Shown piece after piece: positions 41,717-44,980 of a DNA stretch of 64,000 bases. Made by a program: the position numbers and the translations under genes. The notes under the pieces were generated by a model. That model did no database searches, had not been told where the DNA came from, and was given only the letters and a program-made list of their open reading frames with translations. The stretch comes from Burkholderiales bacterium PBB2. GTDB taxonomy: Bacteria; Pseudomonadota; Gammaproteobacteria; Burkholderiales; Burkholderiaceae_C. Where the stretch lies: the NCBI GenBank assembly GCA_002255955.1, contig NKIM01000001.1, positions 186,001-250,000 of the forward strand. The letters are read 5' to 3'. The number at the start of each line of letters is the position of its first letter. Within the stretch, counting starts at the first letter, position 1.

Positions 41717-42028
41717 TCAGTACGACAGCGTGCGCTTGGCCACGTCGACCTTGAGCAAGGCCTTGCTCAGGGCGCCGCTGGTGGCCCGGGCGTAGTCCAT
41801 GGCCCAGGCCGGGTCGCTGAAGGCCGCCGGGCCCACGGCCGCGGCCACGCCGAGAATCTTGTCGGCCAGCAAGACCTTGCCCGAGCCGCGCATGGGCTCG
41901 CACTCGTTCTTGACGTACTGCTCGTCCAGCCACTTGCGGGCGGCCTCAAAGCTCAAGACTTCCTCGGCATCCACCACCAGATCGAACTGCTGGAGCGGGC
42001 TGAACACGACCTTCACTTCACTGCGCAT
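41717..42028 (-). CDS. Small protein of unknown function
   Basis: 103 residues that I do not recognise. No signal peptide, membrane helix or cysteine pair; one Cys. The sequence looks like a compact alpha/beta protein: KVVFSPLQQFDLVVDAEEVLSFEAARKWLDEQY, then a polar turn and Ala-rich C-terminal helices ending KVDVAKRTLSY. Codon use matches its neighbours and the ATG at 42028 is supported by a clean stop to stop frame. It converges with the TRIC gene, with a short TGAGCC/GGCTCA hairpin at the join, and lies downstream of aroG on the same strand (68 bp), possibly co-transcribed. Confidence 0.65.
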   Translation of the reverse strand: MRSEVKVVFSPLQQFDLVVDAEEVLSFEAARKWLDEQYVKNECEPMRGSGKVLLADKILGVAAAVGPAAFSDPAWAMDYARATSGALSKALLKVDVAKRTLSY

Positions 42029-42096: not shown

Positions 42097-43224
42097 TCAC
42101 GCGCGCGCCGCCTTCACCGCAGCGCTGAGCACCTCCAGCACCTCGAGCGAATCGTCCCAGCCCAGGCAGGCGTCGGTGATGCTCTTGCCGTACTCAAGCT
42201 TCCGGGCATCGTCCTTGCCCGGCGTGAATTTCTGGGCGCCGTCGTGGAGATGGCTTTCGACCATCACGCCGAAGATGCTCTGGCTGCCGGCGCGGATCTG
42301 CGCCGCCACATCGCGCGCCACCTCGAGCTGACGCAGGTGCTGCTTGGAACTGTTGGCATGCGAGCAATCCACCATCAGCGTGGTGTCCAGCTTGGAGGCG
42401 GCCAGGTCCTTGCAGGCGGCGGCCACGTTCTCTGCGTCGTAATTGGGCGCCTTGCCGCCACGCAGGATCACATGGCAGTCCTTGTTGCCCTTGGTCTCGA
42501 CGATGGCGACCTGACCGTTCTTGTGCACCGAGAGGAAATGGTGGCCGCGAGCGGCCGCCTGGATGGCGTCGGTGGCGATCTTGATATTGCCGTCGGTGCC
42601 GTTCTTGAAACCGATCGGGGCGGAGAGGCCCGAGGCCAGTTCGCGGTGCACCTGGCTCTCGGTCGTGCGTGCGCCGATGGCGCCCCAGGAGATCAGGTCG
42701 CCGATGTACTGGGGCGAGATCACGTCCAGGAACTCCGAGCCGGCCGGCACGCCCAGGCGGTTGATCTCCAGCAGCAGCTGGCGGGCGATGCGCAGGCCTT
42801 CGTCGATGCGGTAGCTCTCGTCGAGGTAGGGGTCGTTGATCAAGCCCTTCCAGCCCACCGTGGTGCGCGGCTTCTCGAAGTAGACGCGCATGACAATCTC
42901 CAGCGTGTCGGCGTACTTCTCGCGCTCGAGCAGCAGGCGGCGCGCGTACTCCAGCGCCGCGGCCGGGTCGTGGATGGAGCAGGGGCCGATGATGACCAGC
43001 AGGCGGTCGTCCTTGCGCTGCATGATCTTGCGGATGCTCTGGCGCGTGCCAGCGATCAGCTGCTCCATCGGCGTGCCGCGGATGGGGAAGAAACGGATCA
43101 AGTGCTCCGGCGGCGGCAGCGGCGTGATGTCGACGATGCGCTCGTCATCGGTCGCGCTGGTCTTGTCCTCTTGCGAGTACCAGCGTTCAGCCTGAATTTC
43201 CGGTTTGGCGGACTTGGCATTCAT
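42097..43224 (-). CDS. aroG: 3-deoxy-7-phosphoheptulonate synthase (class I DAHP synthase)
   Basis: Condenses phosphoenolpyruvate and erythrose 4-phosphate, the first step of the shikimate pathway. 375 residues from ATG 43224 (GTG 43239 also in frame). Class I AroFGH type: VIIGPCSIHDPAAALEYA, MRVYFEKPRTTVGWKGLINDP, GARTTESQVHRELASGLS with the metal and PEP sites, and VDCSHANSSKQ. Which aromatic acid inhibits it cannot be read safely, but the upstream attenuator has a leader peptide dominated by Phe codons, suggesting control by charged tRNA-Phe, with Tyr and Trp contributing. Confidence 0.96.
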   Translation of the reverse strand: MNAKSAKPEIQAERWYSQEDKTSATDDERIVDITPLPPPEHLIRFFPIRGTPMEQLIAGTRQSIRKIMQRKDDRLLVIIGPCSIHDPAAALEYARRLLLEREKYADTLEIVMRVYFEKPRTTVGWKGLINDPYLDESYRIDEGLRIARQLLLEINRLGVPAGSEFLDVISPQYIGDLISWGAIGARTTESQVHRELASGLSAPIGFKNGTDGNIKIATDAIQAAARGHHFLSVHKNGQVAIVETKGNKDCHVILRGGKAPNYDAENVAAACKDLAASKLDTTLMVDCSHANSSKQHLRQLEVARDVAAQIRAGSQSIFGVMVESHLHDGAQKFTPGKDDARKLEYGKSITDACLGWDDSLEVLEVLSAAVKAARA

Positions 43225-43280
43225 GGGCGTGACTCTCACTTTCCGTGGTCTGTGTTCGATGCAGCGCGGCTCAAGAGACG

Positions 43281-43314
43281 AAAAAAAACCGCCGGGTGGT
43301 GGACCCGGCGGTTT
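43281..43314 (-). terminator. Attenuator terminator in the aroG leader
   Basis: Minus-strand stem AAACCGCCGGGT (43314-43303) / ACCCGGCGGTTT (43297-43286), loop CCACC, followed by a run of eight or more T. It lies 57 bp before the aroG start and 40 bp after the leader-peptide stop. Its first arm (CCGCCGG) can instead pair with CCGGCGG (43379-43373) at the end of the leader coding region, forming an antiterminator. Confidence 0.85.
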
Positions 43315-43353
43315 CTTGAGATTTGTGCGCTGTGCTTGCTTGTCTTGCTTGGC

Positions 43354-43431
43354 TTACGCGCTCACCTCTCGGCCGCCGGTGCGGTCAGAGAACCAAAAAA
43401 AGCTAAAGAAATAGGTCTTCGGCGAGTGCAT
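43354..43431 (-). CDS. Aromatic-rich leader peptide of the aroG attenuator
   Basis: 25-codon open frame from ATG 43431 to TAA 43354. Residues 7-14 read YFFSFFWF: five Phe, one Tyr and one Trp in eight codons, a stalling block like those of pheA and trp leaders. After it come SDRTGGREVSA and the stop. A terminator follows at 43314-43281, and the CCGGCGG in codons 18-20 can compete for its first arm, so ribosome stalling would favour readthrough into aroG. No Shine-Dalgarno sequence is visible; an extended -10 just upstream suggests a nearly leaderless transcript. Too short for ordinary gene calling. Confidence 0.82.
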   Translation of the reverse strand: MHSPKTYFFSFFWFSDRTGGREVSA

Positions 43432-43438
43432 GGGCTGG

Positions 43439-43447
43439 AATGTAGCA
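43439..43447 (-). promoter_or_regulatory. Possible extended -10 promoter of the aroG leader
   Basis: Minus-strand TGCTACATT, with TACATT at 43444-43439 and the TGn element in front. A TTGTCA lies only 12 nt further upstream, too close for a normal -35. Predicted start is within a few bases of the leader ATG. Confidence 0.35.
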
Positions 43448-43507
43448 CGCAGTTTTTGACAAGCGCTCAGCGCCAGATGAGGCACTGAGGCCTTGGCACA
43501 ACAGGTT

Positions 43508-44980
43508 TCAGGCGGTGCCGCCCACGGTCAGGCCATCGATGCGCAGGGTCGGTTGGCCGACACCCACGGGCACGCTCTGGCCTTCCTTGCCACAGACGCC
43601 CACGCCCGTGTCCAGCTGCATGTCATTGCCGATCATGGTGACGCGGGTCAGTGCATCTGGGCCGTTACCAATGATGGTCGCGCCCTTGACCGGGTACTGG
43701 ATCTGGCCGTTTTCCACCCAGAAGGCTTCGCTGGCCGAGAAGACAAACTTGCCCGATGTGATATCCACCTGACCACCGCCGAAGTTGGTGGCGTACAGGC
43801 CCTTCTTGATGCTGGCGATGATTTCCTTGGGGTCCTTGTCGCCACCGAGCATGTAGGTGTTGGTCATGCGCGGCATGGGCAGGTGGGCATAGCTCTCGCG
43901 GCGGCCGTTGCCGGTCGGGGCCACCTTCATCAGGCGGGCATTCATCGCATCCTGGATGTAGCCCTTGAGGATGCCGTCCTCGATCAGCACATTGCGCTGC
44001 GAGGCGCAGCCCTCGTCGTCAACATTGAGCGAACCGCGGCGGTCGGGGATGGTGCCGTCGTCCAGAACCGTCACGCCCTTGGCGGCCACGCGCTGGCCGA
44101 TGCGGCCGGCGAAGGCGCTGGAGCCCTTGCGGTTGAAGTCGCCTTCCAGGCCGTGGCCGATGGCCTCGTGCAGCAGCACGCCGGGCCAGCCAGGGCCCAA
44201 GACCACGGTCATCTCACCGGCCGGGGCCGGGCGCGAGTCGAGGTTGGTCAGGGCCGCATTGACCGCCTGATCGACATAGCTGGCAATCATCTCGTCGGTG
44301 AAATAGGCCAGGCCGAAACGGCCGCCGCCGCCTCCGCTGCCCACCTCGCGGCGGCCGTTGCTCTCAGCAATCACGGTCACCGACATGCGCACCAGGGGCC
44401 GCACATCGGCGGCCAGGGTGCCGTCGGCGCGCGCCACCAGCACCACATCATGTTCGGCGGCCAGGCCAGCCATGACCTGGGCCACACGCGGGTCCTTGGC
44501 ACGGGCCATGCGCTCGGCGCGCTCCAGCAGGGCGACTTTCTCGGTGCTGTCCAGGCTGGCGATCGGATCGGCCGCGCCGTAAAGCGCACGGCTGGGCGCC
44601 ACCGTGCCAACGCTGGGCACCTTGACGCGGCGGCTCTGGCCGGCGGCGGCGATGCTGCGCACGGTCAGGGCGGCGTCCATCAGGGCCGCTTCGGAAATAT
44701 CGTCGGAGTAGGCAAACGCCGTCTTCTCGCCGGCCACGGCGCGCACACCCACGCCCTGGTCAATGCTGAAGGAACCGCTCTTGACGATGCCCTCCTCCAG
44801 GCTCCAGCCCTCGGCTCGGGTGGTCTGGAAATACAGGTCGGCATCGTCAACCCGGTGTTCGGTGATCAGGCGCAAGGCCTTGGTCAGAACATGTTCGCTG
44901 AGGCCGTAAGGCTCCAGCAATTGGCTGCGGGCTGCTACCAGGCGGGCAAGAGTGGGTTCGCGCGAGATCATGCGGGCCAT
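43508..44980 (-). CDS. tldD: Metalloprotease TldD
   Basis: Zinc protease subunit that, with PmbA/TldE, degrades unfolded peptides and matures some ribosomally made peptides (microcin B17) and the CcdA antitoxin. 490 residues from ATG 44980 (ATG 44971 also possible). The active-site motif HEAIGHGLEGD lies at 271-281, the N-terminal domain has GWSLEEGIVKSGSFSIDQGVGVRAV, and the C-terminal Cys-containing DTGVGVCGKEGQ block is present. The partner pmbA is not in the window, as usual for the unlinked pair. Confidence 0.96.
   Translation of the reverse strand: MARMISREPTLARLVAARSQLLEPYGLSEHVLTKALRLITEHRVDDADLYFQTTRAEGWSLEEGIVKSGSFSIDQGVGVRAVAGEKTAFAYSDDISEAALMDAALTVRSIAAAGQSRRVKVPSVGTVAPSRALYGAADPIASLDSTEKVALLERAERMARAKDPRVAQVMAGLAAEHDVVLVARADGTLAADVRPLVRMSVTVIAESNGRREVGSGGGGGRFGLAYFTDEMIASYVDQAVNAALTNLDSRPAPAGEMTVVLGPGWPGVLLHEAIGHGLEGDFNRKGSSAFAGRIGQRVAAKGVTVLDDGTIPDRRGSLNVDDEGCASQRNVLIEDGILKGYIQDAMNARLMKVAPTGNGRRESYAHLPMPRMTNTYMLGGDKDPKEIIASIKKGLYATNFGGGQVDITSGKFVFSASEAFWVENGQIQYPVKGATIIGNGPDALTRVTMIGNDMQLDTGVGVCGKEGQSVPVGVGQPTLRIDGLTVGGTA

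Follow-up and report, generated by a model that had tools for sequence, protein, structure and literature searches.

The aroG gene of the window (the whole stretch of 64,000 nucleotides that was analysed) is very probably controlled by ribosome-mediated transcription attenuation, in which a short leader ORF would sense the supply of charged tRNA-Phe, tRNA-Tyr and tRNA-Trp. This reading comes from the comparison of leaders in related genomes and from a folding model of the leader with a ribosome placed on it. Aromatic amino acid synthesis begins with the product of aroG, DAHP synthase, and in many families of bacteria, both environmental and host-associated, one cis element that reads the end products appears to govern it. 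The elements of the locus, from the promoter to the gene, are as follows.

43439..43447, minus strand: extended −10 element TGCTACATT, its end 7 nt before the leader ATG (read from the sequence).
43354..43431, minus strand: leader ORF of 25 codons, MHSPKTYFFSFFWFSDRTGGREVSA followed by a stop codon, probably translated from a leaderless mRNA.
43390..43413, minus strand: putative regulatory codon block TAT TTC TTT AGC TTT TTT TGG TTC (YFFSFFWF, residues 7–14; sequence and conservation).
43358..43379, minus strand: 5′ arm of the predicted antiterminator (region 2), with CCGGCGG, GAGAG and GCGC, within the leader ORF (folding and shuffle test).
43305..43330, minus strand: 3′ arm of the predicted antiterminator (region 3), with GCGC, TCTC and CCGCCGG (folding, shuffle test and a covarying pair in hand-chosen relatives).
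43281..43314, minus strand: intrinsic terminator with a 12-bp stem, a 5-nt loop and eight T, three of them inside the stem (folding and relatives).
42097..43224, minus strand: aroG, type I DAHP synthase, 375 aa from this ATG (Pfam PF00793, TIGR00034).

The layout described by an earlier sequence-only reading of this DNA was recovered. The minus-strand frame of 25 codons (43431–43354) with YFFSFFWF at residues 7–14 can be read directly; the 12-bp stem with eight T that was said to follow it is present, the stem starting 39 nt past the stop codon. As claimed, aroG begins 57 nt beyond the T run (ATG at 43224), and both Pfam and TIGR00034 identify it as a DAHP synthase gene. The terminator stem, AAACCGCCGGGT-ccacc-ACCCGGCGGTTT, occupies 43314–43286, and the T run (43288–43281) begins inside it. 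CCGGCGG (43379–43373) is complementary to CCGCCGG (43311–43305), so the pairing suggested between them is possible; the latter, the last part of region 3, doubles as the 5′ arm of the terminator. Likewise, an extended −10 element had been placed just upstream of a leader ATG lacking a Shine–Dalgarno (SD) sequence, and TGCTACATT indeed ends at 43439, with SD-like sequence absent.

The aroG product matches the Pfam family DAHP_synth_1 (PF00793) at 6.9e-94 and lies above the cut-off of TIGR00034 (aroFGH); its score against the AroG equivalog model NF006723 is 536.6, below the cut-off of 568. The closest named AroG proteins belong to a Roseateles MAG (90% identity) and to Pelomonas sp. CA6 (87%). 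AroG proteins 66–71% identical to that of the window were also seen on three MAG contigs labelled Planctomycetota, Verrucomicrobiia and Gemmataceae (L215, L218 and L219), which may have been mis-binned. The window's own genome holds another DAHP synthase gene (L002, C44:76619-80506), with about 57% identity to the AroG of the window; the upstream region of this gene was read and contained no aromatic leader, hence the two copies may be regulated differently. On the same strand, 68 nt downstream of aroG, a 103-aa ORF (41717–42028, minus strand) had no match in Pfam or NCBIfam at E 0.001.

By the rule used, the leader is the sole ORF in the window with at least six aromatic residues in eight codons near its stop. 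No ORF with six aromatic in eight near the stop was found in 60 order-1 random sequences of 64 kb. With nearly the same scan procedure, none of 107 control stretches (450 nt, located 500–950 nt upstream of aroG at 107 loci) reached six in eight, one reaching five.

An AroG match was present in 198 of 200 genomes of the family. The family sample comprised 149 of these 198, taken from the top of the similarity ranking and including the window's own genome, and for each genome the region upstream of the best aroG copy was read. At least five Phe, Tyr or Trp in eight residues preceded aroG in 147 of the 149 genomes (110/110 in a first set, 37/39 in a second). The aromatic codons are thus retained in close relatives, and the attenuation first proposed from the window's sequence stands on this point. 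The two exceptions have four aromatic residues of eight in a similar layout, e.g. VYLSYFWHS.

For alignment A1, 109 of the 110 leaders were aligned; L058 was left out, having no terminator by the pattern used, and the start of the L087 leader was shifted by hand beforehand to an in-frame GTG. The most constant part of the leaders is FWF, present in 99 of 109 pooled family leaders. Within these 99, the residue two before the Trp is Tyr in 73 and Phe in 18, and positions −4 to −6 are mostly Phe or Tyr (86, 85 and 70 of 99, respectively). Ahead of FWF, the aromatic run varies mainly by Phe/Tyr exchange and by synonymous third-base changes, with both codons of each residue occurring. The Phe codon TTT occupies 300 of 508 family leader positions versus 8 of 46 in three genes around the window, which is only a hint that the rarer Phe codon is favoured in leaders, as the compared positions come from different genomes. 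The family therefore retains, at the peptide level, a short leader ORF with clustered codons for the end products of the pathway, a feature characteristic of attenuators.

In leaders that end right after GGCGGA (e.g. L070, L079 and L105), GAGAGG persists at and beyond the stop codon, indicating that past the aromatic block the RNA is kept more than the peptide. This bears on the idea that the strong conservation reflects an additional function in trans of the leader peptide or of the terminated leader RNA, of the kind reported for S. meliloti peTrpL/rnTrpL. In favour of such a role, the peptide is highly conserved in its aromatic part, and termination should release an RNA of about 150 nt; but the preference for RNA over peptide behind the aromatic block in such leaders argues against it, and we regard a function in trans as very improbable.

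The terminator hairpin of the window folds strongly in computed folding. With a strict pattern, GGCGGT4+ was found in 108/110 relatives of the first set and 35/37 of the second, and L113, one of the two first-set exceptions, has GGCGGTCT6. An intrinsic terminator thus stands between leader and structural gene, as in known attenuators. A generic promoter and terminator scanner called neither element at the window locus (0 found). In our reading, the promoter was missed because no −35 box lies 16–18 nt away, and the terminator because the stem uses up part of the T run.

Upstream of the leader, tldD lies on the same (minus) strand and ends at 43508, only 77 nt before it, and tldD is found upstream in 74/110 family loci. 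Such proximity would suit an explanation in which the hairpin is merely the 3′ terminator of tldD, the aromatic ORF a chance frame, and the aroG promoter located further down. However, leader and terminator stay with aroG at 36/110 family loci with no tldD found upstream, and at 18 named leader loci no tldD was found either (L190 in a weaker form; some of the 18 repeat family loci), absence being judged within about 900–1500 nt of upstream DNA. Moreover, the ORF keeps its aromatic content through synonymous change. We consider the tldD explanation hardly credible, and attenuation of aroG remains the reading preferred.

The window's region 2 folds with region 3 when region 4 is omitted. The antiterminator is longer than the CCGGCGG match first noticed and consists of GGCGG/CCGCC together with a second and a third stem, which in the window are GAGA/UCUC and GCGC/GCGC. 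Structure tests were carried out on 147 pooled leaders (148 minus L113) from 15 families. In 124/147 of these, the start of region 2 lies 12–15 nt beyond the first base of the codon for the last aromatic residue. Compared with composition-matched shuffles, the extension of the antiterminator gave a mean z of −1.91, with 111/147 leaders below −1, versus +0.12 and 21/147 for a control segment; furthermore, the mean z was negative in each of the 15 families. When the stretch from region 2 to region 3 was folded whole and its middle shuffled, the mean z was −1.25 (90/147 below −1).

Covariation was assessed in set A2, a hand-chosen clade (24 of 25 leaders, L174 left out). In three measures (paired cells, cells with changes on both sides, and the covariation score) the structure outscores every one of the 500 shuffles, whereas pairs changed on both sides were matched by 122 of 500 shuffles and further pair types by 500 of 500. 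A single pair carries most of the A2 covariation. The third-stem pair 19–44 is G-C in 11 of the 24 relatives, A-U in 10, unpaired in two and gapped in one. We take the covariation as partial support for the structure, not proof, since related sequences can exceed shuffles without structure. GGCGG/CCGCC hardly varies and so says little on covariation, and RNAalifold on the whole of A1 (109 leaders) returned only the terminator stem, with almost no covariation. The alternative pairing proposed earlier is therefore kept in relatives beyond what composition would give, and covariation bears it out only in part.

Two further comparisons were tried. A swap test of the distal arms, on 107 of 109 leaders (L051 and L078 left out), was set aside: cognate arms gave −9.80 versus −8.64 for permuted arms, but the control gained about as much (−8.56 versus −7.55). 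The base before GGCGG in region 2 and the base after CCGCC in region 3 agree in most, though not all, of 131 rows (C/G 87, T/A 14, T/G 8, A/G 8, C/A 7, A/A 3 and four others), and this comparison is not relied on. A protector hairpin between regions 1 and 2 was not supported (mean z −0.19 versus −0.04 for the control) in a test judged low-power for purine- or pyrimidine-rich segments; UUCUC can pair with GAGAG, a possible 1:2 pairing.

The switch was examined with a masking model, in which the 3′ edge of the ribosome is assumed to lie 12 nt past the first base of the A-site codon and which, being an equilibrium model, ignores transcription kinetics. For the window leader, whose last aromatic codon is 14, the computed probability of the antiterminator is 1.00 through codon 15, 0.48 at codon 16 and 0 from codon 17. 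With the ribosome on the last aromatic codon, P(2:3) exceeds 0.5 in 142/147 pooled leaders, and the antiterminator collapses 1–3 codons past that codon in 136/147; assumed edges of 10 and 14 nt place the collapse in the same range in 136 and 98 of the 147. By computation, then, an antiterminator that excludes the terminator becomes accessible when the ribosome stalls, as attenuation requires. The region 2–3 stretch is at least as stable as the terminator stretch in 123/147 leaders (−29.0 versus −21.6 kcal/mol in the window), and with no ribosome the probability of the antiterminator is above 0.5 in 62/147, the window among them. This folding of the untranslated leader and the unsupported 1:2 hairpin weigh against the attenuation reading.

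These data also speak to the nature of the signal. The commonest aromatic total per leader is seven, with means of 4.67 Phe, 1.61 Tyr and 0.88 Trp. Attenuation could be real but respond mainly to overall translation, or to one amino acid, e.g. Trp at the conserved W, or Phe; Phe being the commonest residue, FWF the most constant part of the family leaders, and untranslated leaders often favouring the antiterminator are each consistent with this. In contrast, all three aromatic residues occur in 120/147 pooled leaders, with Tyr in 141, and for the window leader the masking model predicts that stalling at any codon through 15 would have an identical effect. Overall translation or a single amino acid as the main signal is rather unlikely, and sensing of Phe, Tyr and Trp together is the reading we favour.

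The pattern TGnTAnnnT was found upstream of 101/110 family leaders in the first set and 35/37 in the second. The distance from its end to the start codon is 6, 7 or 8 nt in, respectively, 6, 62 and 25 leaders of the first set and 2, 21 and 10 of the second. An SD-like 4-mer was found in 0/110 and 0/37 family leaders, in contrast to 49 of the 64 aroG starts that could be placed (first set). The usual distance from −10 to start is about 7 nt, which would put the start of transcription at the leader AUG, and the leader mRNA is probably leaderless in the window's family, judging from these sequences. The signature of a leaderless start, a −10 box at about 7 nt and a start codon without an SD, characterises this family and is not general elsewhere. 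The nearly leaderless mRNA suggested by the sequence-only reading is thus upheld within the family by promoter spacing and the lack of SD-like sequence, with no clear extension to all other families.

In other families, an SD-like 4-mer was present in 4/39 leaders, and by eye several leaders in families f4, f23, f40 and f63 retain a close −10-like box. In a Burkholderia-like group (f32: L134, L135 and L149), a TATA-like box was noted by eye about 40 nt upstream of the leader ATG, with no SD; judging from their sequences, these leaders are not leaderless but seem to be preceded by a 5′ UTR that lacks an SD. TTGAC was also observed upstream of the −10 box in family loci, with 13 of 19 counted occurrences at a 19-nt spacer, the usual spacer being 17. 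Surveys of transcription start sites in B. cenocepacia and C. metallidurans report leaderless mRNAs (PMC4603805, PMC7563307), and the word aroG is absent from the main texts of both.

Computation shows that each part is conserved, how the parts are spaced and how they can pair in alternative ways, and from this we infer the start site, the stalling and the regulatory response. Transcription would begin on the leader AUG, give or take a base or two, and a ribosome would load on the 5′ end. When aromatic aminoacyl-tRNA is scarce, the ribosome would stall in the YFFSFFWF block; region 2, starting just ahead of the stalled ribosome, would then pair with region 3, the terminator would be blocked and aroG would be transcribed. 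When aromatic amino acids are ample, the ribosome would move on to cover region 2, region 3 would pair with region 4, and RNA polymerase would stop at the U run.

The masking model suggests that in the window's genome read-through is the default state and that it is translation past the aromatic block that causes termination. A more tentative proposal, which we consider less likely than not, is that in genomes like this one the many-family attenuator has the antiterminator as its default fold and needs no protector hairpin, and that a ribosome loading at once on a leaderless AUG must pass the three-residue aromatic block to turn aroG off. If true, leaderless initiation would be part of the switch logic, and aroG would answer to the aromatic amino acids as well as to the capacity of the cell for starting translation on leaderless mRNA. 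The attenuator exists in many natural variants, some leaderless at the start and others not, and with these it can be tested whether leaderless initiation and a default antiterminator go together.

The distribution beyond the family was followed with a covariance model built from 109 leaders, with which 399 genomes from the order and 274 from the class were searched. Forty-four matches spanning model positions 1–137 were read, 43 outside the window's family and one weak match in its own genome. Among these 44 loci, aroG lies downstream in 39, and the leader reaches five or more aromatic residues of eight in 37; the 39 with aroG fall under 14 family labels other than the window's, of which 13 belong to the order and one (f63) to another part of the class. 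The five loci without aroG are weak matches (E 5e-5 or worse), one of them in the own genome, and L127 and L168–L171, which no aroG follows, were kept out of the pool. This own-genome match (C44, E 6.9e-5), the second of the model in that genome, was rejected, having no aroG, poor aromatic content and an overlapping match on the opposite strand. The tallies of 183/399 and 48/274 genomes mix full-length leaders with bare terminators and are not counts of the element.

Upstream DNA was available for 79 of 80 named aroG loci (L196 left out), and the leader was found at 61 of the 79; seven named loci repeat a family locus. L190 is one further named locus, with a weaker version of the leader and a terminator, and the leader of L239 has five aromatic residues of eight. 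Carriers include Polaromonas, Variovorax, Rhizobacter, Acidovorax, Hydrogenophaga and Comamonas, as well as Burkholderia, Caballeronia, Paraburkholderia, Massilia, Rugamonas and Janthinobacterium. Neither leader nor terminator was found at 17 of the 79 named loci, among them Polynucleobacter, two Cupriavidus loci, Thauera, Azoarcus, Rhodocyclus and Methylotenera.

A scan of 43000–43700 against Rfam gave no family at gathering score, with the T-box riboswitch and Phe/Trp leader models unmatched; the sole match up to E=10 was an unrelated sRNA model on the other strand (22.1 bits versus a gathering score of 97). Enterobacterial DAHP synthase genes are known for repressor and feedback control, as described in PMC5343134. 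The literature search brought up no paper recognised as an account of aroG attenuation in these bacteria; comparative surveys of attenuation to which PMC1262725 refers lay outside its scope. Each unusual aspect of the element has a precedent, in C. glutamicum, S. meliloti or the ilv operons, whereas the combination and its spread were neither found in Rfam nor recognised in the literature searched; we take the element to be a probable further example of ribosome-mediated transcription attenuation.

Like the enterobacterial Phe/Trp attenuators (the pheA, pheST and trp leaders), the aroG element has a short ORF with regulatory aromatic codons, an intrinsic terminator, and an antiterminator sharing the first arm of the terminator. 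Unlike them, it would control DAHP synthase and carries Phe, Tyr and Trp codons in one block, with no SD and no demonstrable 1:2 protector hairpin. The E. coli ilvGMEDA leader senses several amino acids of one pathway family, and this multi-amino-acid sensing would be shared, but the pathway there is the branched-chain one and the leader is SD-led. In the actinobacterium C. glutamicum, one of two DAHP synthase genes, aroF, has a putative attenuator with Phe-Tyr-Phe in its leader peptide, a shorter motif than the long mixed block seen here, the likeness being one of description (PMC4046766). Finally, the trpL/rnTrpL attenuator transcript of the alphaproteobacterium S. meliloti (PMC7298713) has its 5′ end at the ATG of the leader ORF and may act as a leaderless mRNA, as we propose for the aroG leader, but it differs in controlling trpE(G) through Trp codons.
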